A DNA stretch of 64,000 nt from Kiloniella majae (GTDB taxonomy: Bacteria > Pseudomonadota > Alphaproteobacteria > Kiloniellales > Kiloniellaceae). Positions within the stretch are counted from its first letter, which is position 1. Every line of letters begins with the position of its first letter. The position numbers and the translations under genes are program-made. Where the stretch lies: contig NZ_MTSZ01000001.1 in NCBI RefSeq assembly GCF_002118315.1, forward strand, positions 744,001 through 808,000, in the 5' to 3' direction. The notes below the pieces were generated by a model. The model ran no database searches, had not been told where the DNA came from, and saw nothing but the letters and a program-made list of their open reading frames with translations. Shown piece after piece: positions 7,290 to 26,496 of the stretch.

Positions 7290-8363
7290 CTAGGAAGCAA
7301 TATCCCGATTGATTTTACGACAGAGAGAACCCATGACACGAGATCTGGCTGATCGAACCTGACGTTGCTTATATTGTTCGTGCGATGCCTCGCCATTGCG
7401 GTTGGCCTGATAGCTCTCTTCATCCTGTATCTGGATTTCATAGGGGAAATAAAAACGACGCGGACTACCATCTGTATCTCTGAGCTTAATCCGCTGGCGA
7501 CAGGTAAACTGCAAAGCGCGATAGCTATCACCACTAAAGACATTATCGCTCATACGCCCCACTTCTTTTGGATACTGCATTTCCTGCAGATCCGCGCTGA
7601 CCTGTGCCAGATCTTCAACACCTTTCCAGCGTTCTTCGACCCAATCCACGTCTATAAGACTATTGCGAGATCGTGATGGCTTGATATTGGCGAACATCAC
7701 AACATTATGGTTCCGCAAATAGCAAAGAACCCGAAGTGCATCCAGTGGATAGCGTGTCACCATGCGGATCCCGATCCAGTCAAAGATATCAGCAGCAACA
7801 TTCTCAGCTTTGTGTAACAGCTTAAGCACCGCAGACTTACGGGATTTGGACGCCCGGCTTTCATATGACATCAGCTCTATATCTCCGATAAATATACCGT
7901 TGGATGTATAGCGGATGTGTTGTTCAAAGCGATGAAAGATCTGATCTTGAATTTGACCATGGTAATGTTCGTTAAAAAAGGATCCGCAGTGCGCAAAGGT
8001 GTGCATGACACGCAACAAGGCACAGCTCCACTGTGAGCGCTCTGTCGTTTTGGTCTCGGACACCCACATCAACAGATGCAAAATGTTTTCCTGATTGCGG
8101 ACCTCTGATGGAATTTCTTCATCACTTTCCAACAAAACATCTTCTATAAAATCGATGGCTTCCTGACGGATAGATTCGATTTCCTGACGGTCTTCAAGTT
8201 GATCGTAGTCATAACCATAACATTCAAGGAAGGCTTCGCCCTCTTCAAGTGAAGTGACCTGTAATCGCGGGGAATCAATAATGGATTGACCGTTAAGTAC
8301 CGTCTTTAACGATGCGCCAGCCCAAAGTTTGAGTTCTTCGTTCATTAAATCAGAATTTCCCAT
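7290..8363 (-). CDS. RelA/SpoT-synthetase-fold protein, uncharacterised
   Basis: A 357-residue cytoplasmic protein that I read as a distant relative of the RelA/SpoT (p)ppGpp synthetase domain. The clues lie in order in the second half: a K/R-rich helix SRKSAVLKLLHK (174-185), DIFDWIGIRMV (192-202) matching the 'D-L-x-G-x-R' strand, SYRALQ (280-285) matching the Y-x-S-L-H strand, and PYEIQIQ (307-313) matching the E-x-Q catalytic strand. The N-terminal 160 residues are helical and unlike the HD or TGS domains. It may belong to the poorly described TIGR04552-type group; that is from memory and unchecked. Substrate and activity are unknown. No partner gene is adjacent. The start is the ATG at 8363; a second ATG at 8345 is possible. 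Confidence 0.6.
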   Translation of the reverse strand: MGNSDLMNEELKLWAGASLKTVLNGQSIIDSPRLQVTSLEEGEAFLECYGYDYDQLEDRQEIESIRQEAIDFIEDVLLESDEEIPSEVRNQENILHLLMWVSETKTTERSQWSCALLRVMHTFAHCGSFFNEHYHGQIQDQIFHRFEQHIRYTSNGIFIGDIELMSYESRASKSRKSAVLKLLHKAENVAADIFDWIGIRMVTRYPLDALRVLCYLRNHNVVMFANIKPSRSRNSLIDVDWVEERWKGVEDLAQVSADLQEMQYPKEVGRMSDNVFSGDSYRALQFTCRQRIKLRDTDGSPRRFYFPYEIQIQDEESYQANRNGEASHEQYKQRQVRSARSRVMGSLCRKINRDIAS

Positions 8364-8698: not shown

Positions 8699-9271
8699 CT
8701 ATCTAAAAGCTGGACCGTGCACCCACGCAACCAAAGCGTATCGCGTACCCTTTGTCACTGGACGCACCTGATGCTGTATAAAGCTGGAAAAAATGACCGC
8801 CGTTCCCTGATCTTTTGGCGCGGCCCAGTCTTTACCTTCGTTATCCACACTCAATTCACCACCATTATAGCTTGCGCCATGACTGAGTTGAATAGAAATG
8901 GATAACTTTCGACTAACTGTAGAACCAGAAGCACCAACATCCATGTGCGCACCGTAATGCCCGGCTGGTGCTTTGGGATCTTCCGGTGCATCGTATCTGA
9001 TTAGCTGCAAACCTTCTTTGAAATCGTCCAGATCAAACTGGAACCAGTCCTGATTAACCCGAGACACCAATCCGGCAAGCTTTTTGAAAACCCATGACGT
9101 TTCGACTGTATCATCCAGCCACAAATAGCTGCACTCACGAAGCTTGCTCTTTACCCCGCCAGCCAATTTGGCCTCAGCCACATCAGACGAAGCTTCAAAC
9201 AGGTCAATTAGCTGCTGACATTCCCTGGGGGACAGTACTTTTTCCCTCACACAGGGACGGGTCATTTTCAT
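8699..9271 (-). CDS. 2-oxoglutarate/Fe(II)-dependent oxygenase (PKHD/PiuC-like)
   Basis: A 190-residue oxygenase of the prolyl-hydroxylase-like superfamily, which hydroxylates a substrate using Fe(II), O2 and 2-oxoglutarate. The iron triad is visible: H109 and D111 in GAHMDVG and H167 in FIQHQVRPV. R177 in TKGTRYALVAWVHG is the 2-oxoglutarate-binding residue at the usual ten-residue spacing. YNGGELSV at 135-142 and GTAVIFSS are family strands. It is a single gene with AT-rich spacers on both sides, so the substrate is unknown. Similar proteins (PiuC, YbiX) are often iron-regulated, but no Fur site is evident here. Confidence 0.85.
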   Translation of the reverse strand: MKMTRPCVREKVLSPRECQQLIDLFEASSDVAEAKLAGGVKSKLRECSYLWLDDTVETSWVFKKLAGLVSRVNQDWFQFDLDDFKEGLQLIRYDAPEDPKAPAGHYGAHMDVGASGSTVSRKLSISIQLSHGASYNGGELSVDNEGKDWAAPKDQGTAVIFSSFIQHQVRPVTKGTRYALVAWVHGPAFR

Positions 9272-9604: not shown

Positions 9605-11140
9605 ATGAAAAAAATAGAACGGCGAACGTTTTTGAAAGGGGCTGCCGCCCTTTCAGCTGGTGGTATCGTATTCAAGGGTATCACAGACAGCGGTTTCAGT
9701 TACGCACAGGAAGTCCTCGCCAGCACGTCACCACTGGGAATTTCTGACGACCTGCGCAATCCACCGGAATTAAGGTCTGTGGACGGACAACTCCGTGCCC
9801 AGATATATATGAGTTATAACAAGGTTGAACTTCCCAGTGGCACTGCGCTGTTGCGAAATTTCAACAATAGCCTGCCCGGTCCGACATTACGCATTGATCC
9901 CGGCGATACACTCGAACTCGCATTTGAAAATCGCATGCCGGAGAATTCACCGGATCAACCGACCGAAGTGAACATTCCAAATCACTTCAACACCACAAAC
10001 ATGCACTATCACGGGTTTCATGTCAGCCCGAAAGGCAACAGCGATAACGTCTATTTGAATATCGAACCAGATCAGAAGTTTAACTATGTTGTTGAAATAC
10101 CGGATGATCATCCCGCGGGTAGTTACTGGTATCACCCGCACCGCCACGGATCTGTTTCTGCTCAGGTGGCCTCTGGTGCTGCGGGCATGGCAGTGATCAC
10201 TGGTACGCTGGATGATGTACCGGAAATCAAAGAAGCGGTTGAACGCGTTCTTGTTATTCAGGCCCCGATCCCCGGGGTTGATGGCATACTTGATGCTGAA
10301 GATCCAATCTGGCCCCTTGATGCGGAACGCAACTTTTTGGTCAATGGCGAATACCAGCCTCGGATTTATATCCGTGAAGGCGAAGTTCAACGTTGGCGTA
10401 TTCTGCATGCTGGTGACGCCCAGTTCTTCCCCTTCAAAATGGACGGATTGGAAATTTATGAAATTGGCCGCGATGGTAACCCGCTGCCCAAAGCCCAGCG
10501 TCGCGAGGAGATTCACCTCGCCCCTGGCAATCGCGTTGATATTCTGGTCAAGGCTGTTAAGCCCGGTGCCTACGTTCTTCGCCGCCCGATGTTTGATCAG
10601 GGCAAAGCATCTTTGCCGCCCGTGCATCTCGCCAATGTCTTTGTAATCCCCAAAGACGATCCTCGGGTTCCGGCGGGCACGCCCTTTGGGCGGGCTATTC
10701 CACAAGGTGATCTGCCAAAAAACAGGATACTTACCGATATCACCGACGACGAATTGACGGGCCATCGCAAGATTGTTCTGGGCGTCGAAGATGTGAAGGG
10801 TTTCTTCCACGACACTCTCTTTACCATTAATGGAGAGCCTTTTGATCCACGCCGTGATGACGTGGTCTCCAAGGTTGGCGCAGTCGAAGAATGGACGTTG
10901 ATCAATACAACGCCTTTCCCGCACCCGATCCATATTCATGTGAACCCTTTTCAGGTGAGATCAATCAATGGTGTTCCTGATCCGGACAAACCCTGGATGG
11001 ATACTATCGGGGTACCTGCCGCAGGCTCTGTGACCTTCCGGACCCGTTTTCTGGATTTCTCTGGTCGCTATGTCATGCACTGCCACATTCTTCCCCATGA
11101 AGACACCGGCATGATGATTAATGTGAATATCGAAGCTTAG
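9605..11140 (+). CDS. Tat-exported multicopper oxidase
   Basis: A 511-residue periplasmic oxidase that takes single electrons from a substrate and reduces O2 to water at a trinuclear copper site. The N-terminus has a twin-arginine signal (ERRTFLKG). All four copper motifs are intact: HYH (134-136), HPH (177-179), HPIHIH (H440, H443, H445), and HCHILPHEDTGMM (H492, C493, H494, H498, M503), the methionine pointing to a laccase/CueO-like type-1 site. CueO's methionine-rich insert is absent. It is the first gene of a run of eight. A cytochrome c and a phytochelatin-synthase-like protein follow, so its reductant may be a cytochrome or a thiol/metal substrate; that is inference. Confidence 0.93.
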   Translation: MKKIERRTFLKGAAALSAGGIVFKGITDSGFSYAQEVLASTSPLGISDDLRNPPELRSVDGQLRAQIYMSYNKVELPSGTALLRNFNNSLPGPTLRIDPGDTLELAFENRMPENSPDQPTEVNIPNHFNTTNMHYHGFHVSPKGNSDNVYLNIEPDQKFNYVVEIPDDHPAGSYWYHPHRHGSVSAQVASGAAGMAVITGTLDDVPEIKEAVERVLVIQAPIPGVDGILDAEDPIWPLDAERNFLVNGEYQPRIYIREGEVQRWRILHAGDAQFFPFKMDGLEIYEIGRDGNPLPKAQRREEIHLAPGNRVDILVKAVKPGAYVLRRPMFDQGKASLPPVHLANVFVIPKDDPRVPAGTPFGRAIPQGDLPKNRILTDITDDELTGHRKIVLGVEDVKGFFHDTLFTINGEPFDPRRDDVVSKVGAVEEWTLINTTPFPHPIHIHVNPFQVRSINGVPDPDKPWMDTIGVPAAGSVTFRTRFLDFSGRYVMHCHILPHEDTGMMINVNIEA

Positions 11141-11168
11141 ATCCGCTCAACGAACTGGATTACTGAAC

Positions 11169-11501
11169 ATGACGAAATTAAAAACGATTTACGCCACCAG
11201 TGCCCTTTTGGTTGGTGGCATATTCCTAGGGAACACAGTGCTGGCTGATACTCCCGCTCCTACGCCTATTCCAGCGTCAGGCTCGCAATGCCTTTCCTGT
11301 CACGGTGAAGACGGGCGCCCCGCCTTGGCTGATGTGCCGATCATCGCCGGACAACAACCGATCTATCTGGCAAATGCCTTGCGCCATTACAAAAACGGAC
11401 AGCGCACAGGCGGACAGGCCCTCGTGATGCAGGAAATGGTCAAAGACCTTACAGACAAAGATATTGAAGAACTCGCAAAATGGTTTGGAGAACAGAAATG
11501 A
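11169..11501 (+). CDS. Periplasmic class I cytochrome c, single haem
   Basis: A 110-residue c-type cytochrome with a Sec signal (about residues 1-26, ending LADT) and a haem-attachment site CLSCH at 41-45. The later QALVMQEMV offers methionine axial ligands. The sequence resembles small c552/c553-type electron carriers, with IIAGQQPIYLANAL typical of that group. It lies 28 bases after the multicopper oxidase and overlaps the next gene by four bases (ATGA). It is the only cytochrome in the run, so it is the likely electron carrier between the FAD dehydrogenase encoded downstream and the multicopper oxidase upstream (inference). Confidence 0.92.
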   Translation: MTKLKTIYATSALLVGGIFLGNTVLADTPAPTPIPASGSQCLSCHGEDGRPALADVPIIAGQQPIYLANALRHYKNGQRTGGQALVMQEMVKDLTDKDIEELAKWFGEQK

Positions 11502-12217
11502 GAACGTTCCTATTAAATACAGTTGCCGCAGCCACTCTTATTACTCTGTCCCTAACTGGTGCCGTGCAGGCTGACAGCACGACCAAGGCTGATAACAACA
11601 TCTACCTAACCTCGCCACAGGGTGAGCAACTCTTCCGCGATGCCGAAATTCTGACGGATTACCTAAAACTGGCAAGCTATCTGGAAAGCGAACACATCCT
11701 GACTTTCTGTGGCCCCGCCTCCATTGCGGGGGTTATGAACTCACTGGATATTGAACGCCCTGTGCCACCACAGCTTTATCCTTGGCCCCTCTTTACCCAG
11801 GTCTCAATCTTCACCCCGGAAAACCAGAAGGTAAAATCCTATGCCATGGTTGAACACGAAGGGCTGGAATTACCGCAAATAGCCCAGTTCTTCATTAACC
11901 TAGGGGCAAAGGCAGAGTTTAAACACGCAGATGACTTTGATGAAAACTGGCTGCGTGAAACCATTACCAAAACGCTTGCCGATCCGAACAAACGTTTTGT
12001 CGCCAACTATTCACGCAAACCTATCGGTCAAATCGGTGGTGGACATATTTCACCCGTAGCAGCCTATGATGCCGACACGGACCGTGTCCTGGTAATGGAT
12101 GTTGCCCGCTATAAATACCCGCCAGTGTGGCTCACTATTGCCGAACTATATGGCGCAATGATGGACAAAGATTCCACATCAAACAGAGCACGTGGTGCTG
12201 TCATCGTCAGTCAATAG
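11498..12217 (+). CDS. Phytochelatin-synthase-like (glutathione-cleaving) protein
   Basis: A 239-residue exported member of the phytochelatin synthase family, a papain-like fold. Bacterial members mostly cleave glycine from glutathione or its conjugates. The catalytic triad is complete: C71 in TFCGPASIAGVM, H183 in GGGHISPVAAYD, D201 in LVMDVARYKYPPVW. This spacing is nearly that of the cyanobacterial NsPCS triad. A signal peptide spans about residues 1-25, so it acts in the periplasm. The ATG at 11498 overlaps the cytochrome stop codon and has GGAG seven bases upstream. Its location among redox genes and an ATC hydrolase-like gene suggests work on a thiol peptide or cysteine-derived molecule. 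Confidence 0.9.
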   Translation: MRTFLLNTVAAATLITLSLTGAVQADSTTKADNNIYLTSPQGEQLFRDAEILTDYLKLASYLESEHILTFCGPASIAGVMNSLDIERPVPPQLYPWPLFTQVSIFTPENQKVKSYAMVEHEGLELPQIAQFFINLGAKAEFKHADDFDENWLRETITKTLADPNKRFVANYSRKPIGQIGGGHISPVAAYDADTDRVLVMDVARYKYPPVWLTIAELYGAMMDKDSTSNRARGAVIVSQ

Positions 12218-12307
12218 ATCAGCACTTGGAGTAGCCTCATTCGCTGGGCAAAAGATCCACCAGCAACCAACTCACAAGGGCACCAAGAGAACCGCATAAA
12301 AAAACAA

Positions 12308-12323
12308 GACCTCTATAGAGGTC
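12308..12323. promoter_or_regulatory. Perfect 16-bp palindrome before dehydrogenase small subunit
   Basis: GACCTCTATAGAGGTC is a perfect palindrome in the 121-base spacer after the phytochelatin-synthase-like gene, ending just before the AGGAG ribosome site at 12327. It could be a protein-binding operator or a small RNA hairpin that separates expression of the two halves of the gene run. Confidence 0.5.
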
Positions 12324-12338
12324 GTCAGGAGAAGTCAT

Positions 12339-12815
12339 ATGAAACTAAGCAGACGCTCTTTACTGGCTTCTGCAGCGCTGATCCCCTTGGCAGGACAGGC
12401 ACAGGCGTTAAGTCTGGGGTCGGGTTCTCGGGTATTTAGCGAAGCAGTTCGTCAGATCGGTGGCGTGGTTGATATCGCCGATCATATGGTCCGTGCAGTC
12501 GAGACAGAGTTCCTTGCTGTCTATGGACAAGATGCCATGAATACCTTTATCCAGCTGGTTGACGGGCGCTCGATTACCGAGGCCCTGATCAGTGCCAGCG
12601 ATGACTTCAAGGAACAGACAAAACTAATCGCCCGGGTTCTCTATACCGGCGAAATCACGCGCACAGATGATAAGGGTAACAGCACAACAACTGTCCCGTA
12701 CTATCCCTGGTCACTGGCCTGGTCATCCCTTGCCTTTGCAAAAGCACCCGGCATCTGCGGGGGGCCTAAGTTCGGGCACTGGACACATGGCCCTATTAAG
12801 GGAGGTGTGATGTAA
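12339..12815 (+). CDS. Tat-signal small subunit of FAD-dependent dehydrogenase
   Basis: A 158-residue protein of the FAD-dependent sorbitol/gluconate/glucose dehydrogenase small-subunit family. It carries a Tat signal (SRRSLLASAALIPL) and the conserved C-terminal block YYPWSLAWSSLAFAKAPGICGGPKFGHW. Such subunits chaperone the cytoplasmically folded flavoprotein through the Tat system, since the large subunit has no signal of its own. AGGAG lies six bases before the ATG. The stop codon shares one base with the start of the large-subunit gene, as expected for a stoichiometric pair. Confidence 0.88.
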   Translation: MKLSRRSLLASAALIPLAGQAQALSLGSGSRVFSEAVRQIGGVVDIADHMVRAVETEFLAVYGQDAMNTFIQLVDGRSITEALISASDDFKEQTKLIARVLYTGEITRTDDKGNSTTTVPYYPWSLAWSSLAFAKAPGICGGPKFGHWTHGPIKGGVM

Positions 12816-14452
12816 TGGCTGAAGAAAACAAAATGAATGCCGATGTGGTCATTATCGGTGCCGGTATGGCCGGCGCACATCTTGCCCGCTCTTTACGCGA
12901 AAAAGGCATAGATGTCCTGATTTTGGAAGCCGGGGACAGACGCCCCCGCGGTGACTTCCTCAAAGTTTTCTACGAGAACCCGGTTAAAGGTCCTCAAGCC
13001 CCCTACCCAAGCATACCTTCAGCGCCACACCCTGAAGATAACGGCTATGCTGATTTCTATGTTCAAGACAAAGATACATTGAAAGAAAATCTCTTTATCG
13101 GGGCTTACTTACGTATCTTTGGTGGGACAACATGGCACTGGACGGGTTTCGCAGATCGCCTGCGCCCGGCAGATTTCCGTATGAAGAGTCTCTATGGCGT
13201 AGCCGAAGACTGGCCCATCGATTACGAGCTTCTGGAACCCTTTTACGAAGTTGCAGAAAAACGCTGGGGTGTCGCAGGTGATCCCAACCACGTCTGGGGA
13301 GCACCGCGCAAGACACCTTATCAGATGCCACCAATTCCCGAGACTTATCTAGATATACAGGTTACCAAGGCACTCACCAAGATGGGCCTGCATTCGGCGA
13401 TCTTCTCTCATGCACGTAATTCTGTGATCTATGATAACCGCCCTGTTTGCTGTGGTAACAATACCTGCGTCCCAATCTGTCCTATTGGGGCCAAATACGA
13501 CGCATCTGTGGATGCACAAAAGGCAGAAGAAGAAGGCGCACGTATAGAGGTCAATGCCCTTGTGACCTTTATGGAAGTTGATAAAGACCAGAAGATCACC
13601 CGCGTCAAAGTCCAAAAGCCGGATGGATCAACCTTCTGGGTTGGCGGCAAGGCTTTTGCTCTTTGTGGTCACGCCATCGAAAACCCAAGACTCTTGCTCA
13701 ATTCCAAACAGGAAAACGCAAGCAAAGGCGTTGCAAATTCATCTGATTCTGTGGGGCGCTATTTGCTGACCCAGGCAAATCAGGATACTACCGGATTTAC
13801 CCCGGATCCCGTCTTCCCCTATCGCGGGCCACAACAGACCTCTGGTCTCGTCGAGCGACGCGATGGTGAATTCAGAAGCAAGATGGCCGCCATTGGTACA
13901 TCCTTTATGAATAATGGTTGGTCAGGGAACAGCGATGCTATCAACATGGCCCACGATCTTATTGATCAGGGTGTTGTCGGTGCAGAGCTTTCAAAACAGA
14001 TTAATGAGAAGGTTTCCCGTCACCTACGCCTGAATTCTTCGGCAGAGGTATTACCGGATCGAAACAATAGGCTTGAACTTTCTGATCAAATGGACACCGC
14101 TGGCATCCCCAAACCCAAGATTACCTTCAAGATGGATGACTATACCAAAGAAGGCCTCAAAGTAGGCTTGGACATCAATCTGGAAGTCTTCAAAAACATG
14201 GGGGCGACAGAGGTCAAACACAACGATCCTTACCTGTCCAATGCCATCATTGGCGGCACGACACGTATGGGAACCGATGTAAAAACCTCTGTGGTTAATG
14301 CTGATCTGGTTGCGCACGATCACGACAATCTTTATATCATTGGCTCCAGCAGTCATGTCACCACTCCGGTTAATGCCCCGTCTCTCACCATTGCAGCGCT
14401 TGCCATCCGTGCGGCAGGACACATGGAAAAGAAACTGGCCCAAACACCATAG
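12815..14452 (+). CDS. GMC-family FAD dehydrogenase large subunit with Cys cluster
   Basis: A 545-residue flavoprotein of the GMC family that oxidises an alcohol or sugar-like substrate. The FAD dinucleotide motif GAGMAG is at 15-20, followed by EAG at 38-40. The C-terminal active-site region reads SSSHVTTPVNAPSLTIAAL, with the catalytic His. A cluster CCGNNTCVPICP (C212, C213, C218, C222) matches the 3Fe-4S ligand pattern of bacterial FAD glucose dehydrogenase, so electrons probably leave through an iron-sulphur centre. No multihaem cytochrome subunit follows, unlike the three-subunit enzymes; the single-haem cytochrome upstream may take its place. The substrate is unknown. Start shares a base with the small-subunit stop; GGAGG is nine bases upstream. 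Confidence 0.9.
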   Translation: MAEENKMNADVVIIGAGMAGAHLARSLREKGIDVLILEAGDRRPRGDFLKVFYENPVKGPQAPYPSIPSAPHPEDNGYADFYVQDKDTLKENLFIGAYLRIFGGTTWHWTGFADRLRPADFRMKSLYGVAEDWPIDYELLEPFYEVAEKRWGVAGDPNHVWGAPRKTPYQMPPIPETYLDIQVTKALTKMGLHSAIFSHARNSVIYDNRPVCCGNNTCVPICPIGAKYDASVDAQKAEEEGARIEVNALVTFMEVDKDQKITRVKVQKPDGSTFWVGGKAFALCGHAIENPRLLLNSKQENASKGVANSSDSVGRYLLTQANQDTTGFTPDPVFPYRGPQQTSGLVERRDGEFRSKMAAIGTSFMNNGWSGNSDAINMAHDLIDQGVVGAELSKQINEKVSRHLRLNSSAEVLPDRNNRLELSDQMDTAGIPKPKITFKMDDYTKEGLKVGLDINLEVFKNMGATEVKHNDPYLSNAIIGGTTRMGTDVKTSVVNADLVAHDHDNLYIIGSSSHVTTPVNAPSLTIAALAIRAAGHMEKKLAQTP

Positions 14453-14489
14453 TTAAGACAAAACAATCGCAGGACAAGTCAGGTACTTG

Positions 14490-14522
14490 CTCAATGAATA
14501 AGGTTTAAACTCAATGAACAAG
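14490..14522 (+). repeat. Duplicated start region with decoy MNKV mini-ORF
   Basis: CTCAATGAATAAG (14490-14502) recurs as CTCAATGAACAAG (14510-14522) with a 20-base period. The first copy encodes Met-Asn-Lys-Val-stop. The second contains the real start (Met-Asn-Lys-Ile) of the MFS gene. It looks like a tandem duplication of the initiation region. Confidence 0.7.
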
Positions 14523-15992
14523 ATATTTGGCGTTGTCAGTCTGGAAATTCTCTCTTTTGTCTTCCTCGGAAACGCATTGAAATCTGTTGTCACCTCGACA
14601 GTTTTTGTTTCCGAGGGCGAATTTGCCAGTTTCCTGAATATCTCTGTCGACAAAACCCAAATCCTAGTCGAGTTGCTGATTGGCAGTTCAGTCATGGCAC
14701 TAGCAGTGGCGCCCTTTTTGCTAACGCGTCAACGGGCACACAAAATTGCATCTATCTCAGCCTTGGTCGCCGCAGGATGCTATGCCGCACTTGGCCTGAC
14801 CATGACCATGGGGCCAGCTCTTTTTGTCCGTGAGTTAATGGTAATCATCACCTTTGCATTGGGCGGTTTTTTTATCTCTTTCTTTGCCCCCATAGCCCAA
14901 CTGGCCATCAACGATGTGGAGAACGAACGTGAACGGGTTTTCCTAACCACCGTCTGGACCTCGGCGCAACCCGTTGCTTTTTTGATTACACCACAGTTGG
15001 TTAAATACGTTGCGCTGGATATCGGAACTGGAAATTACTTTCTGATTTTTGCCATTTTCCCAATCTTTTACCTGTTTCTCACCCGGACAGTTTTAAAAAC
15101 CGTCACGGATCAAAACACCCGTCAAACAGTAGAACAAAACAAACCGTTGGAAAGTGGCAGGATTGACTGGCGCACCATTGGCTTTATCATCGTCGCGATA
15201 GCAGCATTCGAAGCATGGACCCTGTCCAATTCACTCGCAGGGGTTATATCACCAATAAGTCTTTCGTTAATGGTAGCCTTTTTTATAATTGCGGGAATTT
15301 CCGGCCTTTATCTCAAGAGAAAACAACAAAAAACAAAGGCACTCTATAGCTCCGCAACCTCTGTGCCCAAGGGTCTTCCGCCAACGGCGACTTTCATGCT
15401 GATTGGCCTTTTTATTATGGAGATTCCCTCTACAGGTTTTTTTGACGGGGCCTATCTTGTCCGGCACCTTTGCGCTCCGGGACTTATCGAAGATCGTGCC
15501 TCGTTAGGTGCAGCGGCCCAAATTGCCGCGGTCGCCCTTGGCGGTGCACTTTTTGTCCGTTGGCCTCGTATGATGCCGGCCTTGCTCATTATTGGCATTC
15601 TTCTGCTGCTTGTTGGGTCCATTGGCTTTATCCGCTATCCGGACCTGCCAGTTGATGCGGGCTTCTTTTACACGTCCAAGATGATCGCTTCTGCTGGCAT
15701 GGGGCTTGTCACAACCATCATCGTTGGTGTGGTCATGGCAGAGTGTCGCGGCAACCCGGTTATGGCGCTGTTACCTGCCCTCGTCATCATGTTCGGAACT
15801 GAATTTGGACTTGAGATACTGGAAATCGTTTATCAAGGGGCCAAGCTTTATGGCTTGGAAGAAGTCGAAACCTATCGCGCTATCTTTATCGCACAAGTTA
15901 TCGTCATTGTTTTTGCCTTGATCCCCTGTATCGAAGGTTTGTATCTCAGGCACAAACAGCTCAAAGCTTCACAAATTGCGACGACCTCGTAA
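14514..15992 (+). CDS. MFS-type membrane transporter
   Basis: A 492-residue inner-membrane carrier with 12-14 hydrophobic segments and a cytoplasmic loop at about 200-220. It has the general MFS layout (basic loop TRQRAHK after the second helix), but I cannot name a substrate. Position 61 bases after the dehydrogenase gene and just before two further same-strand genes suggests it moves the substrate or product of the pathway encoded by this run. The start region is duplicated (see the repeat at 14490-14522). No SD-like sequence of note lies upstream of the ATG. Confidence 0.8.
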   Translation: MNKIFGVVSLEILSFVFLGNALKSVVTSTVFVSEGEFASFLNISVDKTQILVELLIGSSVMALAVAPFLLTRQRAHKIASISALVAAGCYAALGLTMTMGPALFVRELMVIITFALGGFFISFFAPIAQLAINDVENERERVFLTTVWTSAQPVAFLITPQLVKYVALDIGTGNYFLIFAIFPIFYLFLTRTVLKTVTDQNTRQTVEQNKPLESGRIDWRTIGFIIVAIAAFEAWTLSNSLAGVISPISLSLMVAFFIIAGISGLYLKRKQQKTKALYSSATSVPKGLPPTATFMLIGLFIMEIPSTGFFDGAYLVRHLCAPGLIEDRASLGAAAQIAAVALGGALFVRWPRMMPALLIIGILLLLVGSIGFIRYPDLPVDAGFFYTSKMIASAGMGLVTTIIVGVVMAECRGNPVMALLPALVIMFGTEFGLEILEIVYQGAKLYGLEEVETYRAIFIAQVIVIVFALIPCIEGLYLRHKQLKASQIATTS

Positions 15993-16005
15993 GGACCCCG
16001 CCATT

Positions 16006-16317
16006 ATGATCGAAGCCTATAAAATCCTCGAAGATACGCCAGAGCGTATAACCTATGAATACAATGCTCTTCTAACCTGGGGGATTTTCGCAGCCCTCGG
16101 CATGGGTTTAGCCGGGGTTTTCCTCGGGATATTTTTGTTACAGGTACTCTGCGGTATTGCGATGGTGATTTATCTCTATATCGGCTTCACAAAGGTAAAT
16201 CCGATTAACAAAAAAGTGCGAAAAGCCCTGCGCGAGGGGACCCTTACTATGGAAGGCAGCAAGTATTCCTTTCAGCGTCCCTTACGCCTGACGATCACAC
16301 ACAGCAACGCAGAGTAA
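16006..16317 (+). CDS. Small two-helix membrane protein, unknown
   Basis: A 103-residue protein with a soluble N-terminus, two transmembrane helices joined by a short turn (about residues 23-64) and a basic C-terminal tail (NPINKKVRKALREG). No family is recognised. The ATG at 16006 follows AAGGA by about ten bases; the longer frame from 15976 overlaps the transporter. It sits 13 bases after the transporter and three bases before the ATC hydrolase-like gene, so it is almost certainly co-expressed with them. Confidence 0.75.
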   Translation: MIEAYKILEDTPERITYEYNALLTWGIFAALGMGLAGVFLGIFLLQVLCGIAMVIYLYIGFTKVNPINKKVRKALREGTLTMEGSKYSFQRPLRLTITHSNAE

Positions 16318-16320
16318 CAG

Positions 16321-16869
16321 ATGAGCAAAACAGACTTACCAATTCTGGAACAGCGCCGGATAGAGGCAAATATCATTAAACCAATCTATGATGAAATGGT
16401 TGCCGAAGTCGGTGCTGAACGAGCTAAGTCAATTTTGAAAAATGCCATTGTTAAAAATGCAATCTCACACGGCAAAGCCTATGCAGACACGCAAGAAAAA
16501 GACACATCGCTGTTAAGTTTTCACGCGCTGTTGCCACAATGGATGGCAAATGGTGCGTTAGAGATTGATGTCCTTCAGGAAAATGAAAACAACGTGGATT
16601 ATAACGTAACGCGTTGCCGCTTTGCTGAAATGTACGCCGACATGGGATTAGGCGAAATCGGTCATATTCTATCCTGTAGCCGGGATGGAACCTTTTGCAC
16701 GGGCTATGACCCTAAAATCAAACTAGACCGTAGCCAAACCATTATGGAAGGCGCAAGCCATTGTGACTTTCGCTATCACTACAGCTCAGATAATGCCAAT
16801 CCAAATTATGATGGCCCAAATCATAACGGCCCAAGCCACAAAGATAGTGGCGATGACAAGGACACCTAA
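16321..16869 (+). CDS. L-2-amino-thiazoline-4-carboxylate hydrolase-like protein
   Basis: A 182-residue cytoplasmic protein of the ATC hydrolase family, named for opening the thiazoline ring of L-ATC on the way to L-cysteine. The core is conserved: NVTRCRFAEMYADMGLGEIG, LSCSRDGTFCTGYDPKIKL and EGASHCDFRY. The C-terminal tail from about residue 153 is rich in Asn, Asp, His and Pro with repeated GPNH-like units and looks unstructured, possibly metal-binding. Its place at the end of the run with a phytochelatin-synthase-like protein points to cysteine or thiol chemistry, although characterised substrates of most family members are unknown. Confidence 0.8.
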   Translation: MSKTDLPILEQRRIEANIIKPIYDEMVAEVGAERAKSILKNAIVKNAISHGKAYADTQEKDTSLLSFHALLPQWMANGALEIDVLQENENNVDYNVTRCRFAEMYADMGLGEIGHILSCSRDGTFCTGYDPKIKLDRSQTIMEGASHCDFRYHYSSDNANPNYDGPNHNGPSHKDSGDDKDT

Positions 16870-16875
16870 AAATTA

Positions 16876-16913
16876 GGCCTTGAAGCAACAGGTTTCTCTA
16901 TTGCTTCAAGGCC
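16876..16913. terminator. Bidirectional terminator hairpin
   Basis: A perfect 13-bp stem, GGCCTTGAAGCAA with TTGCTTCAAGGCC, around a 12-base loop lies between convergent genes. The minus-strand side is followed by TAATTTTT, so it should end the RTX transcript efficiently; the plus-strand side has a weaker tail. A 10-bp direct repeat CACCAGATAT follows at 16923 and 16948. Confidence 0.75.
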
Positions 16914-16981: not shown

Positions 16982-19720
16982 TTACCCCAACACATCCAGA
17001 CTATCTGAATCCAACAGCGACTTAATAGCATCCAGTTCAGAAGTTCCGCCGTTGAGCAGGTTCACATTATCCAGTTCGATAACAACGTTATCCCCACCCG
17101 GTAGCGCCCCATTACTATCAACGGTAATGGTTGTGTCTGACCCATTGGTAGAAACATTAAGGTAATCGTTCAGTGCAGCAGCCAGTTCAGAATTATCTGT
17201 CGCAGCAGCCAGTGATCCGTCATCCATTAACAGCTCGCTTAGGTCCAAAACGTCACCTTGGCCAGTATTAAAGCCGACAATTGTATCGGTACCGTCTGCA
17301 TCTGCGCCAGAGAACTGGTATGTATCTGCACCTGATCCGCCGTTCAGTATATCATCACCGGCACCACCAATCAGAAGATCATCACCACTTTCGCCGGACA
17401 GGATATCGTTACCAATACCACCGATCAGCGTATCTTCGCCGTCACCAGTCCACATTCTGTCGTTTCCAGCACCACCATCAACGGTATCATTGCCAGACCC
17501 ATTATAGCGATCATCAAAGGTATCATTACCACCTCCTAATGAAATTTCGTTATCCGTAGCACTACCATAAACGTAATCTCCAAAATCAGTTGCGACCAGA
17601 TTATCAATACCTTCAAGGCTTTCATCGCTGACCAGCTCTTTAGAAAGTCCGACTTTGCCTTTAATCTCAGAATTGTTCGCACCACCCGAAGGTGCATTGG
17701 CACCGCCAACCGGACCACCGTCATAATCCAGAAATGCCTGAATTCCGGCTGTTGCAGTTGAATAGTCAGCATTGGCACCATCCACAACCAGACTTAATGT
17801 ACTGGATGCCGTATCACCGTCACCATCTGTAACTTCATAGGTAAAGACATCTGTGCCTGCACCCTGTTCTTCTGTGGTAAAGCTAACCTGACGTACAAAG
17901 TAATCAGATGAATCGCCCCGGCGGCTACCGCCATCAGCATAGTCAATTGCATCAAATACCAGATATTGGAACTTAACACCCCCGGTATCAATTGTCGCAG
18001 TACCTACATTGCTGCCGTTGTAATCAATTGTTGGGTCATTCAGAATACCAGACGCAACCTTGTTGCCGTCGGCATCATAGGCAGTCCACTGTCCCTGTTC
18101 GCCCTTGCTCTCTGTTTTATAGAGGTTAGAAACTTTAACAGTGGCTGATGTTGCATCCGCTTGCAGATCAATAACCAGCTTTTCACTTTCACCAGTTACC
18201 GCGTCATGATTGATCTGAGTAGGTGCAGGCGATCCACCGGATACACCAATACCGCGACTACCAAATGTTACATTTGCGCCTGTGCTTGCCAAAGCATCAA
18301 AATCAGGCGTGTCGCTCATGCCATATGCATATAGTTTAACATCACCCCAATCACTGCTACGACCACCCGTTCCCGAGCGACCAACAGAAAAATTACCACC
18401 AGCCTGATAGCCTGTCGCCGTATAGGTATAAGCACCATCTGCGGAAATCTGTAGCGTACCGTTCGTGCCAACGATCTCTGTCACACCATCTGCAGCAACA
18501 GCATGTTCTTTACCGTCAAAAGTAACCGATGTAATCGTCCCACCATCCGCACCAACACCGTCGTTATCAAGAACATTACCTGTTACTGATGTATTTGTAC
18601 CCGTACCCGCCAAGGTTTCACTATCGGCAACAGCAACGGGAACATCATCTTCAATTGTTACTGTAACCGCAGTTTCAAGAACAACCTCGTCACCATCAGT
18701 ATCAAAGGCTTTGAAAGCACCTGAAATATCAAGATCAAGCGATTGCCCATCATCATTGGCAGGGGTATTCGGTGTGTGATCAATTTGATCTTTAAGGGCA
18801 AAGTTAAAATCGTCACCATCTTTGGTTAGCTCAAAAATAACGCGCTCACCATCACCAGAACCTGTGACACCCTGAACAGCAATAACCGTACCCGAACCAT
18901 CGGTAATGACTTTATAGCTTACGGCTTCACCCTGAGAGGTTATACCAACCGGGCCAGCGATGTTTTCGTTAAAATCAAAACCGCCCAGACCATCTGTTCC
19001 GGCATCAACCGTGGTTGCCAAAGCTTCGGCAGTAATCGTAATTTCAGTTGTCTGACCTTGGCCAGTTTCAGCATTCGCCCCTTTTAAGGCATCTTCGTGA
19101 ACTTCAACATTAACAGGTGCCACAGCATTATTAACCGGCACACCATTTAATTCTGCCAGAGTTTCTTCGTCGCCATCATCCAACAAATTAAAATCAAGCT
19201 CAGTACGGCCTAATGTGTCCTGTGCGTCCAGTAGATCAACAAGATCACCCGTCTCATCATCATACTGACTGCCGCCGCCACCTTGTGGTCCAGCACCTGC
19301 ACCTGCTGCTGTTTCCAATGTTTCTCCGGCGTTTAGTGCTTGTGCCTGACCAATCAAAAGACCAGCGGAAAGTTCAACACCACCGATAATTAGAACCGGC
19401 GCATCAGCACCTTGCGCTTCTTCAACCAGGTTTTCAAAAATGATCCGACTATCGGAAGCACCATCGCCATTACGATCAAAGGTCAGAACAAAGTCATTAC
19501 CTTCGAGAACGGGGGTTGCACCAGATGCGTCAAAATTCAGGTTGGCTGATTGCCCTTTGGTAAGCGTAACCGTTGTCGTCTCGCCCGCATTCGGAACCGT
19601 TACATCAACAGTTGTTGCCGCTTGACCAACAAGCTGATCGCGACCAGCTTCGCCAGAAACATCACCTGTAGGTTTATCAGAGACAATTTCGCTTGCAACT
19701 TTAGTCAACATAATCACCAT
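16982..19720 (-). CDS. LapA-type RTX adhesin, 912 aa
   Basis: A secreted surface protein exported by a type I system. Order: an N-terminal module (about 1-135), TAAG at 137-140 within a Gly/Ala linker (the motif cut by LapG-type periplasmic proteases), VCBS/cadherin-like beta domains with IEDDVP and VTDGDGDTAS junctions, a glycine-rich lectin-like insert at about 450-650, RTX calcium repeats (GGxGNDxxxG) at about 750-815, and a C-terminal secretion signal domain with DVLDLSELL. The N-terminal module would hold the protein in the outer-membrane pore until cleavage; this is inferred from the layout, since the module is not the Pseudomonas LapA type by eye. No T1SS or lapD/lapG genes are in the window. 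It is a paralogue of the next gene upstream. Confidence 0.88.
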   Translation of the reverse strand: MVIMLTKVASEIVSDKPTGDVSGEAGRDQLVGQAATTVDVTVPNAGETTTVTLTKGQSANLNFDASGATPVLEGNDFVLTFDRNGDGASDSRIIFENLVEEAQGADAPVLIIGGVELSAGLLIGQAQALNAGETLETAAGAGAGPQGGGGSQYDDETGDLVDLLDAQDTLGRTELDFNLLDDGDEETLAELNGVPVNNAVAPVNVEVHEDALKGANAETGQGQTTEITITAEALATTVDAGTDGLGGFDFNENIAGPVGITSQGEAVSYKVITDGSGTVIAVQGVTGSGDGERVIFELTKDGDDFNFALKDQIDHTPNTPANDDGQSLDLDISGAFKAFDTDGDEVVLETAVTVTIEDDVPVAVADSETLAGTGTNTSVTGNVLDNDGVGADGGTITSVTFDGKEHAVAADGVTEIVGTNGTLQISADGAYTYTATGYQAGGNFSVGRSGTGGRSSDWGDVKLYAYGMSDTPDFDALASTGANVTFGSRGIGVSGGSPAPTQINHDAVTGESEKLVIDLQADATSATVKVSNLYKTESKGEQGQWTAYDADGNKVASGILNDPTIDYNGSNVGTATIDTGGVKFQYLVFDAIDYADGGSRRGDSSDYFVRQVSFTTEEQGAGTDVFTYEVTDGDGDTASSTLSLVVDGANADYSTATAGIQAFLDYDGGPVGGANAPSGGANNSEIKGKVGLSKELVSDESLEGIDNLVATDFGDYVYGSATDNEISLGGGNDTFDDRYNGSGNDTVDGGAGNDRMWTGDGEDTLIGGIGNDILSGESGDDLLIGGAGDDILNGGSGADTYQFSGADADGTDTIVGFNTGQGDVLDLSELLMDDGSLAAATDNSELAAALNDYLNVSTNGSDTTITVDSNGALPGGDNVVIELDNVNLLNGGTSELDAIKSLLDSDSLDVLG

Positions 19721-20116
19721 TATCTAAATTCATAACATAGCTCTGGTTGTACCCAAGACCTTAAATCAACAGGTCAAAAAGAGCTTTTTTGCACCTATAC
19801 ATCATAGCTGGAAATACAAATTTTTGATAGAAAAACATCTTAAAAGCCTACACAAATATGTATGATATAAATTTAATAATTATTTTATTTTTATCTTTAA
19901 TTTTAAATAGTTAGTAAAAATGACCATTTAGATAAAAATTGATGTAAATACATTTTAAATTCAAAAATAATTTCAGATAAAATCAATCTTTTTATCGCAA
20001 TTTTTTTTCAATTGTTTGGCGTATGTTTTTGGACCAAAAACAATCCTATACAGCCCCATACCAGAAAACAGATCAAATGCCTTTTCATTGAATTTTCACA
20101 ACGTGGAGAGAGTGAA

Positions 20117-20278
20117 ATGGAAGGTATCTCTGTCATTTCACAGATAAATGGTTTTGTACTATTAGAAGAAAGCACCTTCATCCAACATAGGATGGGAATG
20201 ATCATCAATGAGCATCTGACCACTCCAGATGGCTATAAAAGTATAAAAGGCGCTTTGTTACAATCTGTCATAGAATAA
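20117..20278 (+). CDS. Possible 53-aa small protein or gene fragment
   Basis: This short frame starts with ATG and has GGAGAG seven bases upstream, a better ribosome site than most genes here. The product (MEGISVISQINGFVLLEEST...) has no recognised domain. A +1 open frame continues across its stop codon to 20571, so it could be the 5' part of a frameshifted gene of about 150 codons. It lies alone on the plus strand between two minus-strand RTX genes. Confidence 0.3.
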   Translation: MEGISVISQINGFVLLEESTFIQHRMGMIINEHLTTPDGYKSIKGALLQSVIE

Positions 20279-20593
20279 AAAGAAATCATAATATTAATGG
20301 ATACATTTATGACCATGATCAGACCTATAAGATAATTGAAGAGATCGAGGCTCTATTACCTTTGAGTATAACTCGATCCTCAGCTGGGCAAATCCTCAGC
20401 GGCCTTATCATCGCAATCCATTTCTACCTCGCTATCTTTCAGACCGTTGCGATCACACGAGAAATACGAGTAGCCAAGCGTGCAAATTTACTCGAACTCA
20501 AAGGCAGCAAACATTCCCTTGCCAATCCTCTGTGCTATTCTCTGACAAAAAATTCCAAATCACTTTGTTAACAGCCACATAGATACAAAAAAA

Positions 20594-20619
20594 AGCCCCG
20601 GACAATCAAGTCCGGGGCT
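20594..20619. terminator. Intrinsic terminator of the large RTX gene
   Basis: AGCCCCGGAC and GTCCGGGGCT form a ten-bp GC-rich stem with a six-base loop, flanked by A-runs on the left and T-runs on the right, so it works in both directions. It lies 35 bases past the stop of the 1831-aa RTX gene. Confidence 0.9.
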
Positions 20620-20653
20620 TTTTAATTCTTCGCAGAACAAAGATCGTTACAAT

Positions 20654-23600
20654 TTACTCTACAATCAAATTATTTGCATCAAGCAAAGATTGGATCGCAT
20701 CGTGTTCTGAAATCGAACCACCAGAGGTGAGATCATTATTCTCAAGCCTGATTGTTACATCGCTATCAGAACCAGAGCCATCTTGATCTATGGTAATTAC
20801 TGTTGTCGAACCATCCTGACTGATTGACAGATAATCTTGCAGAACTGTTGCTGTCGCATCGCTATCAGCACCAGCGGCAAAACCTGTAAGAAGTTCACTC
20901 AGATCAAGAGCATCACCATCAGACGCTTTAAAATCTCGAACAGTATCGATATCACCAACAGTATCAGCTTTGAAGACAAAGGTATCAGAACCAGAACCGC
21001 CAGACATACGGTCATTACCTGAACCACCGATCAAGATATCATTACCAGCTTCACCTGACAGGTTGTCATTGCCAGTACCGCCGATCAGGATATCTTCTCC
21101 ATCGCCGGTCCACATGGTATCGTTACCAGTACCGCCATCAACACGATCATTGCCTGAACCGTTATGACGATCATCAAAAGTATCGTTACCCGCACCAAGT
21201 AGAACAATGTTGTCTGCCTCGCTACCGTACACATAATCTCCGTGATCAGTCGCAACCAGATTATCAATGCCATCAAGCGTGCCGTCTGCTTCTCCAAAGA
21301 GCCCAGAGAACCCATCAGCAGGTCTGCTTCCTGGTGCATTAGCACCACCCACAGGACCATTATCATAGTTCAAGAATGCCTGGATGCCTTCACCACTATC
21401 TGAGAAATCAACAGTATTATCAGCATCAACAGAAACACTAAATGTACTGCTGGATTTATCACCGTCACCGTCTGTGATTTCATAGGTAAAGACATCATCA
21501 CCACCGGCTTCACTTGCAACCAGACTTACATTATCAATGTAGGCCCCAAATGTGTTCGCTGTTCCGGCACCTTTAAAGGCCAAGACTGTATCAGCAGCCC
21601 CTGTTCCTTTAACAACAACGGTAATCGTTCTCCAACCATTAGCCAAACCGGTTGAGTCAATCTCTTTGACCTGAACCCCATTCCAGAACACGTTCATGCT
21701 ACTGCTATCAGCAGCGCCATCACCTGGACGTGGAGAGTAAGAGAACGTCAAGGTATAGTCCTGCCCCTCTTTGGTTCCAGCTACAACTTGTTGAACAGTG
21801 GCATTAGGATTGCTACCATGTCCATCAAGTTCAACCTTGGCAGTACCATCTTCAGCTTCCAATCCACCAAGTTTACCAGAACTGTTCTGAACTTCGAACT
21901 TTGATCCGTCACCCTTTGTCCAGCCCTCAATACTGTCAAATGTTCCCCATCTGCCATTACCAAGGCCATGGCCATTTTCAAAACTACCATTCTGGATCAA
22001 GTTAGTATCATCATTCTGGAAAGCTTCGTAGCGAAATTCACCATCAGACGAAATCGTCAATTTACCATGATCGCCAATAATGACAGTCTCAACAGATGTA
22101 GAAACTGCATGTTCGTCACCTTCAAAAGTTACCTTGGTAACCTTAGCACCATCAGCACCCTGAGTATCATTATCAAGAACATTGCCCTCAACAACATCAT
22201 CACCATAAGCAATGGCAGACGCGGTATCCGCAACGGCGATAGGTTCGTCATCTACGATATTCACACGAATATTTGCAGTCGCCGTATCACCATCACCATC
22301 GGTCACTGTATAGAACAGTTTATTCAGGTTGATATCTTCGTCGTGCGACCCTTTATTCGGATGTTCAACACCACGGTATTGAACGAAATAAACATTAGCA
22401 CTTTCTGAAGATGTAGAATGCGACATGTAGGCAACAAAAACAATTTCACCGCTATCCAAACGCCCTACGACGGTGTTTTCATCTTCGCTAAACAGCTTGA
22501 TATCTTGATCTGTCGCTGCATCTTTCAAACCGGATAATTCGCCAGTATAGGCATTGCCGTCAGCATTTGTCAGATCAACTTTTCCGCCAATTTTGTCTTT
22601 ACCAAAATCAAAGGAAAGGCTCTCTTTAGCCGCTGAAATCGGATCTCCATCAACAAGATCAGGGAAATCATTTGGCAGATCTCGGAAGCGGATCTCATCT
22701 GTATTGCGCTGACGTCCAGATGTTTCATCAGTATAAACTGCATCTGCCTGGGCAGAAGGACCATCATCATCAATGTTGATTGTTGCAACTGCAGAAGCCG
22801 TGTCACCATCACCATCGGTCAATGTCACATTGAAACCAAGCGCAAGCAGGTCATCATGATCCGCAGGTGTAGATCCATCCTGATCGTGATCAAGCTGACG
22901 ATACTGTGTGAACTCGTATTTACCGTTAGTCGTATCAAACACGAAGGTATAAACAGCATCACCGCCAGTTGTTTCCGCTTCAATTGTAATAAAGCGGCCA
23001 TCAGCAGAAGTAGAAGTTTCCGTTGTGACGGTTTCTGTTGCTGATGTAACACCCGTTGGGGCCTCAACATTAAAGCTATGACCAACCACGTCGGTTCCAA
23101 CATCAAATGTCATTTGACCGACGGCCACACCACATCCATCAACAGGGTCAGCACCCGTCACCTTAACAATTAAGTTTACATCATTGTAATCCCCATCACC
23201 TTTAGGATTACGCAGATCTTCCCAATTTTGGTTGCCGGGATACGTGTTGTTCACAACATGCGAGGAACCATCCGGGTTCAGACCAGAGTTAGAGAAATAA
23301 GCAGGCTCTTGGCTACCAGAAAGAGCATCAGTGCCTTTATAAGCAACCCACTTGCCGCCTTCAAATTTGAAGGTAACATCATCACCAGCCGCAAGGCCTG
23401 AATTTTGATTATCACCATTCGGGATCAAGAAGATACCAACGGTGGCACCCTCTGGGTAATCAGCTTTGTTAAAGGTAACAGAGGTAGAAGTCAGATCGTG
23501 CGCGTCTGGCTGAATAATTTTGCCACCGATAGGATTGCCGTCAGCATCGGAAACATAGTATCCGATCGTGTTATGGAACCCTGCAGAATCGCGCCCGGCA

Positions 23601-26149: not shown

Positions 26150-26496
26150 ATGTGAGAACCCCGTTCGATATTTCGTCAAAACAGGCTGTCACAATTTAAT
26201 CCGGCAGCCTGTAAGAAAACTAATAATATTGGCATCAACTATATAGATGATTGGAAAAATCGCAATCGCGTTATCTTGAAAAACTATAGTAATATGTATG
26301 ATTTTTATATTGATTATATAGCTTATTTATTTTTAATTTTATACACTTATCGGAATCGGGTTATTTCTGGTGCACAAAAATACATGTTCCCTAAATTGTT
26401 TATTTCCTCAAAGTCTGAATATCATTATCTTCAACTCAGAGAATATAAGCACAACACATAAAGCATACATAAAAAGCATCGGGGGCCTGAATACAT
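26150..26496. other. AT-rich divergent promoter region
   Basis: This holds the promoters of the giant adhesin (minus) and the DsbA-like gene (plus). I see no gene; a 61-codon frame at 26276-26461 is AT-driven. A short direct repeat, ACATAAAGCAT (26456-26466) then ACATAAAAAGCAT (26467-26479), lies just before the GGGGGC ribosome site. Confidence 0.45.

Follow-up and report, generated by a model that had tools for sequence, protein, structure and literature searches.

Six consecutive genes on the forward strand of the 64,000-nucleotide stretch of the Kiloniella majae genome analyzed here (contig NZ_MTSZ01000001.1, 744,001–808,000, hereafter the window; host genome 4.38 Mb) form a conserved unit. 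They encode, in order, a multicopper oxidase (MCO), a monoheme cytochrome c, a phytochelatin synthase (PCS)-like protein, the small subunit and the GMC-family catalytic subunit of a predicted flavin adenine dinucleotide (FAD)/Fe-S dehydrogenase, and an MFS-type permease. Their order and strand are unchanged in 25 of the 26 loci compared, which is far above chance. We lean modestly toward the view that this operon is a single periplasmic oxidation system, in which the FAD/Fe-S dehydrogenase would pass electrons to the MCO, and the PCS-like protein and the permease would act on the same stream of compounds. The parts belong to known families, and no description of such a unit was found in the open literature among the matches listed. 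Going by the residues that define their nearest characterized enzymes, the GMC subunit and the PCS-like protein cannot be classed as working members of those enzymes.

Conservation and spread of the unit

A single scan of GTDB genome contigs, using a profile of the PCS alignment, recovered 22 named loci, 21 of which retain all six genes with order and strand kept. The unit is also present in genomes G355 and G761 and on plasmid NZ_CP014600.1 of Salipiger sp. CCB-MM3; with the window, this makes 26 loci, 25 of them complete. The incomplete locus (L112) belongs to a Sneathiella metagenome-assembled genome (MAG), where the contig ends after gene 3. Nine genus labels are represented (Kiloniella, Thalassospira, Hoeflea, Rhizobium, Neorhizobium, Alloyangia, Salipiger, Nitratireductor, and Aquibaculum), and two complete loci come from MAGs named at family or order level only. 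Within Kiloniella, the six genes stand in order in eight genomes (G000–G005, G007, and G008), as they do in G032; the ninth genome of the genus, G006 (77% complete), has no PCS match.

The genes are closely packed outside Kiloniella, with overlaps at 68 of the 85 junctions in the 17 complete loci (starts picked by script); successive gaps are 2, −1, −4, −1, and −4 bases in Thalassospira and −20, −19, 26, −4, and −4 in Alloyangia. The permease is present in all 25 complete loci, being matched as two pieces in L124. Pairwise distances of the six proteins correlate across the 25 loci with r of 0.92–0.99, a value to which shared species history also contributes. A comparison of neighboring genes (23 loci, 13 of them listed; open reading frames (ORFs) of at least 80 amino acids) found relatives of the core genes in 9–10 of the other 10 groups, and of any non-core gene in at most four. 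The unit is six genes, not eight. A reading made from the sequence alone had proposed one unit of eight same-strand genes at 9605–16869; the ORF list of the window agrees that all eight are present on that strand, and the comparison bears out the six core genes and removes the last two, an ATC (2-aminothiazoline-4-carboxylate) hydrolase and a small membrane protein. A conserved neighborhood in distant genomes, which that reading had suggested looking for, exists for the six genes and not for the ATC hydrolase.

In a sample of the phylum, 12 of 398 genomes have a PCS-like match, and among these, other core genes lie nearby only in the unit carriers G000, G032, and G761. The PCS protein had no relative among viral contigs in a single scan. 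In the PCS tree, Thalassospira groups with Hoeflea and Neorhizobium (95/82), and Kiloniella with the Sneathiella MAG; this grouping and the plasmid copy suggest that the unit has probably spread horizontally among Alphaproteobacteria.

Residues of the dehydrogenase and the PCS-like protein

The GMC catalytic subunit (12815–14452; Pfam GMC_oxred_C) is closest by profile to B. cepacia glucose dehydrogenase (BcGDH) over its whole length (E = 5e-142; 6a2u/8hdd), and it also matches fructose dehydrogenase (E = 2e-125). In BcGDH, Cys212, Cys218, and Cys222 are the ligands of a 3Fe-4S cluster, Cys213 forms a disulfide with the small subunit, His105 carries the bonded FAD, and His476/Asn519 are the likely catalytic pair (PMC6719666); the fructose dehydrogenase variants H1147A and N1190A, as named in structure titles, have the same 43-residue spacing as that pair. 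In all 25 GMC subunits of the unit, the FAD-linking H108 (equivalent to His105) and the Cys residues C212, C213, C218, and C222 are invariant, as is C140 of the 25 small subunits, the partner by residue for the inter-subunit disulfide. From these residues, a covalent FAD, a 3Fe-4S cluster, and the disulfide are predicted. The catalytic pair is replaced in 25 of 25, by I478 at His476 and A521 at Asn519, and Asn475 is likewise replaced by A477. The profile alignment is ungapped at the replaced pair, and the SNAIIGG stretch contains no His; two other residues of the subunit, H514 and N520, are invariant. GMC relatives outside the unit retain the His/Asn pair in 12 of 12 cases (nine aligned, three read by eye), and one of the nine aligned relatives (L061) is a second GMC protein of the unit carrier G032. 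A tenth aligned relative, the fragment L070 of G049, carries the replacements seen in the unit. The AlphaFold2 model of the GMC subunit is poor, with a mean predicted local distance difference test (pLDDT) score of 59.6 and values below 50 for residues 511–521.

The small subunit (putatively of the gamma, hitchhiker type; 12339–12815) shares one base, 12815, with the GMC gene. It has 158 amino acids in the window, where it has no Pfam match at E 0.01, the threshold at which the other seven of the eight encoded proteins are matched. FAD-SLDH (PF12318) was matched in 3 of 13 small subunits, the window's member not among them, and a twin-arginine motif is present in 21 of 25. Its AlphaFold2 model is of moderate quality. 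The first-ranked Foldseek match is a fructose dehydrogenase chain (8k6j_B) with a weak E-value of 0.27, and chains of the BcGDH complex are at ranks 4 (E = 0.51, probability 0.82) and 17; no Foldseek match was found at E ≤ 0.001.

The PCS-like protein (11480–12217; PF05023, 8e-52) has Nostoc Alr0975 (NsPCS) as its nearest solved relative (2e-58). The Cys-His-Asp triad is kept in 26 of 26 members as C77/H189/D207, numbered from 11480. These are the residues that the sequence-only reading had numbered C71/H183/D201; the offset of six arises because the likely start is 11498, rather than the longest-ORF start at 11480. We regard 11498 as the most likely start. The overlap with the cytochrome gene is then ATGA (it would be 22 bases from 11480). 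Both small overlaps described earlier, this one and the shared base at 12815, are real. The Gln of the oxyanion hole, located six positions ahead of the Cys, is Gln64 in NsPCS and Gln50 in AtPCS1, and AtPCS1 Q50N is inactive (PMC3855540). In all 26 unit members, this residue is Glu (E71). PCS-like proteins outside the unit keep Gln in 22 of the 23 checked, a count that leaves out L069, L150, the G054 match (L048), and the plasmid matches H2–H23; the exception is the protein of G391, which the tree places with those of the unit (91/86, on a long branch). Equivalents of the second-substrate cavity residues described in the same source (PMC3855540) are R179, K212, and Y213 here. They are kept in 26 of 26, and these conserved pocket residues are the one feature that points to a glutathione-related substrate class. 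A crude scan found an N-terminal hydrophobic stretch in 26 of 26 PCS-like proteins; the protein is thus predicted to be exported and would probably be periplasmic. The earlier description of the active sites as all intact holds for the MCO ligands, the PCS triad, the CxxCH motif, and the GMC Cys residues, and fails for the GMC His/Asn pair and the PCS oxyanion Gln.

The Glu now in the oxyanion hole matches a change, Gln19Glu, that reportedly turned papain into a nitrile hydratase. Because of this match in a Cys-His-Asp enzyme, we consider, as a distinctly unlikely case, a new periplasmic pathway in which the PCS-like protein would hydrate or hydrolyze a cysteine- or glutathione-like compound at a nitrile, thiocyanate, or imidate group. 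This step would be coupled to flavin oxidation by the GMC subunit, with its active site rebuilt (H514/N520). ATC forms from cyanide and cystine (PMC9291117); for this reason, the ATC hydrolase found as an add-on in Kiloniella would fit such a pathway.

In a sample of the class, the two replacements occur together. Of its 385 genomes, 20 have a PCS-like match; the oxyanion residue was read in each of the 20 and is Glu in five (G000, G005, G032, G355, and G391). GMC matches at E ≤ 1e-100 (up to three candidates scored per genome) were obtained in 8 of the 385 genomes, and the altered GMC signature is in the same five genomes as the Glu-type PCS. Two of the five carriers are from one genus, and thus four lineages are represented. 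The altered signature is common to G391 and a GMC fragment (L070) of G049; the latter genome is not part of the class sample but among the 58 relatives, and its fragment (L164, G049:C188:205-768) is without the N-terminal part. In G391, the GMC protein has, by eye, Q for N476 and P for A521. The G391 contigs concerned (L160 = G391:C156; L093 = G391:C67) hold the altered GMC gene and, by eye, a small subunit, and a more distant, divergent MCO lies about 2 kb from the altered GMC gene. In G391, the unit is possibly dispersed or in decay.

No member compared retains the GMC His/Asn pair or the PCS oxyanion Gln, while all 12 MCO ligand positions are intact; the PCS-like and GMC proteins could therefore also be pseudo-enzymes serving as structural or electron-carrying scaffolds, with the MCO, for example a metal or phenol oxidase, as the true catalyst. 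We hold this to be unlikely: the FAD His, the cluster Cys residues, and the Cys-His-Asp triad are invariant, and a scaffold would not need them. In the GMC subunit, moreover, the active site may have been rebuilt, as the invariant H514 and N520 suggest.

The proposed oxidation system, accessory genes, and surroundings

The three-domain MCO (9605–11140; Pfam Cu-oxidase, _2, and _3) has a TAT (twin-arginine translocation)-type signal in the window, and the twin-arginine motif is found in 23 of 26 MCOs. Twelve copper-ligand positions are invariant at 26 of 26 loci, in motifs that we take to be the T1, T2, and T3 copper ligands. By profile, the nearest solved proteins are laccases such as Thermus 2xu9, followed by 3zx1, and the MCO falls under the curated cut-offs of the CueO and copper_res_A models. 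The cytochrome (11169–11501; Pfam Cytochrom_C/Cytochrome_CBB3), predicted to be exported, has exactly one CxxCH in 26 of 26. For the permease (14514–15992; MFS_1, 1e-6, under the family cut-off), a crude hydropathy scan gives about 12 transmembrane helices in the window copy and 7–14 over 25 loci; MFS_1 was matched in 9 of 13 permeases, and searches of the PDB by sequence and of NCBIfam gave no match.

A periplasmic oxidation by the operon would proceed as follows. The GMC subunit would be exported by hitch-hiking on the TAT-type small subunit and, with covalent FAD and a 3Fe-4S cluster, would oxidize a small substrate outside the inner membrane. Electrons may then pass from FAD through the 3Fe-4S cluster and the operon's monoheme cytochrome c to the MCO, which would reduce O2 to water; this role as the oxidant is proposed for the MCO because of its operon membership and intact ligands, the two features on which we base it. 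The sequence-only reading had proposed such an electron route, which is plausible. The secreted PCS-like Cys enzyme would act on the same stream, most likely on a glutathione- or gamma-glutamyl-related compound. Substrate or product would be carried across the inner membrane by the MFS permease. Because core residues are replaced in fixed fashion in both enzymes, the reaction would differ both from ordinary sugar oxidation and from the usual deglycination of glutathione.

Several observations weigh against a single oxidation system of this kind. The GMC subunit is without the catalytic pair used by related dehydrogenases, and it is therefore possible that this flavin subunit is no alcohol dehydrogenase. 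In the eight Kiloniella loci, the gap before the MFS gene is 41–212 bases, exceeding that in most other loci. The altered GMC and the Glu-type PCS of G391 are on different contigs, and its PCS frame holds an internal stop; G049 (69% complete) has the altered GMC fragment and no PCS match. In addition, the cytochrome could feed an ordinary terminal oxidase, with the MCO doing something else.

The same gene content might instead reflect a biosynthetic or tailoring operon, in which the PCS-fold enzyme and the GMC protein would build or modify a small exported peptide-like molecule (e.g., a thiol metallophore), the MCO would perform a copper-dependent oxidation of the product, and the MFS permease would export it. 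Two oxidases and a permease within one unit agree with this, remodeled active sites would suit an unusual substrate, and a cyanobacterial PCS reportedly has transpeptidase (phytochelatin-making) activity, while the Nostoc PCS is reported to cleave mainly glutathione (PMC7411734). We nevertheless judge it rather unlikely, as periplasmic biosynthesis with a respiratory-type 3Fe-4S relay would be unusual and no extra gene stands beside the unit in more than four of the other 10 groups; since that comparison was limited to ORFs of at least 80 amino acids, a short precursor peptide may have escaped it.

Downstream of the permease gene in the window are the genes for the small membrane protein (15976–16317, likely start 16006; TerC, 0.009, under the family cut-off) and an ATC-hydrolase-family protein with no evident signal peptide (16321–16869; PF14196, 3e-36). 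Each of the two adjoins five of the eight Kiloniella units; the small membrane protein was not found in unit loci outside the genus. A family search found the ATC hydrolase in six of the nine Kiloniella genomes: it is absent from the unit carriers G002 and G003, and in G008 it is apart from the unit, on a different contig (L058). Outside the genus, we considered 18 genomes that carry the unit (in the case of L112, only its contig-end part) or its two variant enzymes, with completeness known for four of them. One of these (G391) has an ATC hydrolase over the family cut-off, encoded on different contigs from its PCS and GMC genes; G355 has one match, under the cut-off, and none was found beside the unit. 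The last two genes of the proposed eight-gene unit are thus rejected from it as accessories of the genus. The sequence-only reading had envisaged an eight-gene thiol/thiazoline pathway with the ATC hydrolase, for which the ATC-hydrolase gene following the unit in five Kiloniella genomes can be cited; because the hydrolase is patchy, a thiazoline step cannot belong to a general pathway, and, refuted in that general form, the eight-gene pathway is highly improbable. The ATC hydrolase is a possible add-on within the genus.

The sequence-only reading had also named a palindrome at 12308 as a possible break in the operon. There is a perfect 16-base palindrome at 12308–12323 (GACCTCTATAGAGGTC), directly 5′ of the ribosome-binding site of the small subunit. 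A pattern scan places its T-run on the minus-strand side, and for this reason we do not regard it as a terminator of this operon. The spacer that bears it is seen in Kiloniella only; L108 and L110 have the identical palindrome, and L109 and L122 have it in altered form. Outside the genus, the gap between the PCS and small-subunit genes is −4 or 26 bases in the 17 complete loci. The palindrome is a possible regulator site. A 16-pair hairpin (16876–16913) between the convergent ATC-hydrolase and VCBS genes is terminator-like for the VCBS side. Rfam gave no matches across the window at gathering thresholds.

In Kiloniella, a 2OG-Fe(II) oxygenase gene (8699–9271, minus strand) points away from the unit in divergent orientation, and PhyH-type dioxygenase genes lie about 0.3–2.1 kb from the unit in Hoeflea and G355 (L092:13228-14052; L116:14471-15325); these oxygenase genes may be near the unit by chance. 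A RelA/SpoT-like protein (7290–8363, minus strand; under the Pfam cut-off) is encoded near the unit in the compared Kiloniella loci and was not found at the other, non-Kiloniella unit loci compared. Large VCBS/RTX-like repeat proteins (labeled by eye; 16982–26179, minus strand) adjoin the unit, and related stretches occur in compared Kiloniella unit loci. In a Thalassospira genome, a ZnuA-type zinc-uptake gene (L115:14243-15337) is immediately 3′ of the unit.

Relation to characterized systems

The unit is best described as a variant of FAD/Fe-S dehydrogenase complexes, and there is a genuine possibility that it is more than that. The set of six genes is fixed in several lineages, and two of its enzymes are, in all copies compared, without residues needed by their characterized relatives; this suggests a periplasmic reaction not yet described. 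For these proteins, annotation as "phytochelatin synthase family" or "GMC family oxidoreductase" may be misleading. Study of the unit could reveal how a copper oxidase links a flavin dehydrogenase to O2, and it is a small, testable operon in cultured bacteria that are not known to be harmful (Thalassospira, Kiloniella, and Hoeflea).

Like the FAD glucose dehydrogenase of B. cepacia and the fructose dehydrogenase of Gluconobacter, the unit combines a GMC fold having the FAD His and the 3Fe-4S Cys residues with a putative TAT-type small subunit bearing the predicted disulfide Cys. Unlike these complexes, its GMC protein has Ile and Ala for the catalytic His and Asn, and its operon has a monoheme cytochrome in place of a triheme cytochrome subunit (the operon is where a triheme protein was sought; the remaining genome was not searched); moreover, the dehydrogenase is joined to a PCS fold, an MCO, and an MFS permease. 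The PCS-like protein resembles NsPCS (Alr0975) in the PF05023 fold, the Cys-His-Asp triad, the cavity Arg, Lys, and Tyr, and in being a half-size protein, whereas the unit members have Glu for the oxyanion Gln and are fixed within an oxidase operon. The MCO shares the copper-ligand motifs and the TAT-type signal of three-domain MCOs (Thermus laccase 2xu9, the oxidoreductase 3zx1, and CueO), but, in contrast to these, it is the operon partner of a flavin dehydrogenase.

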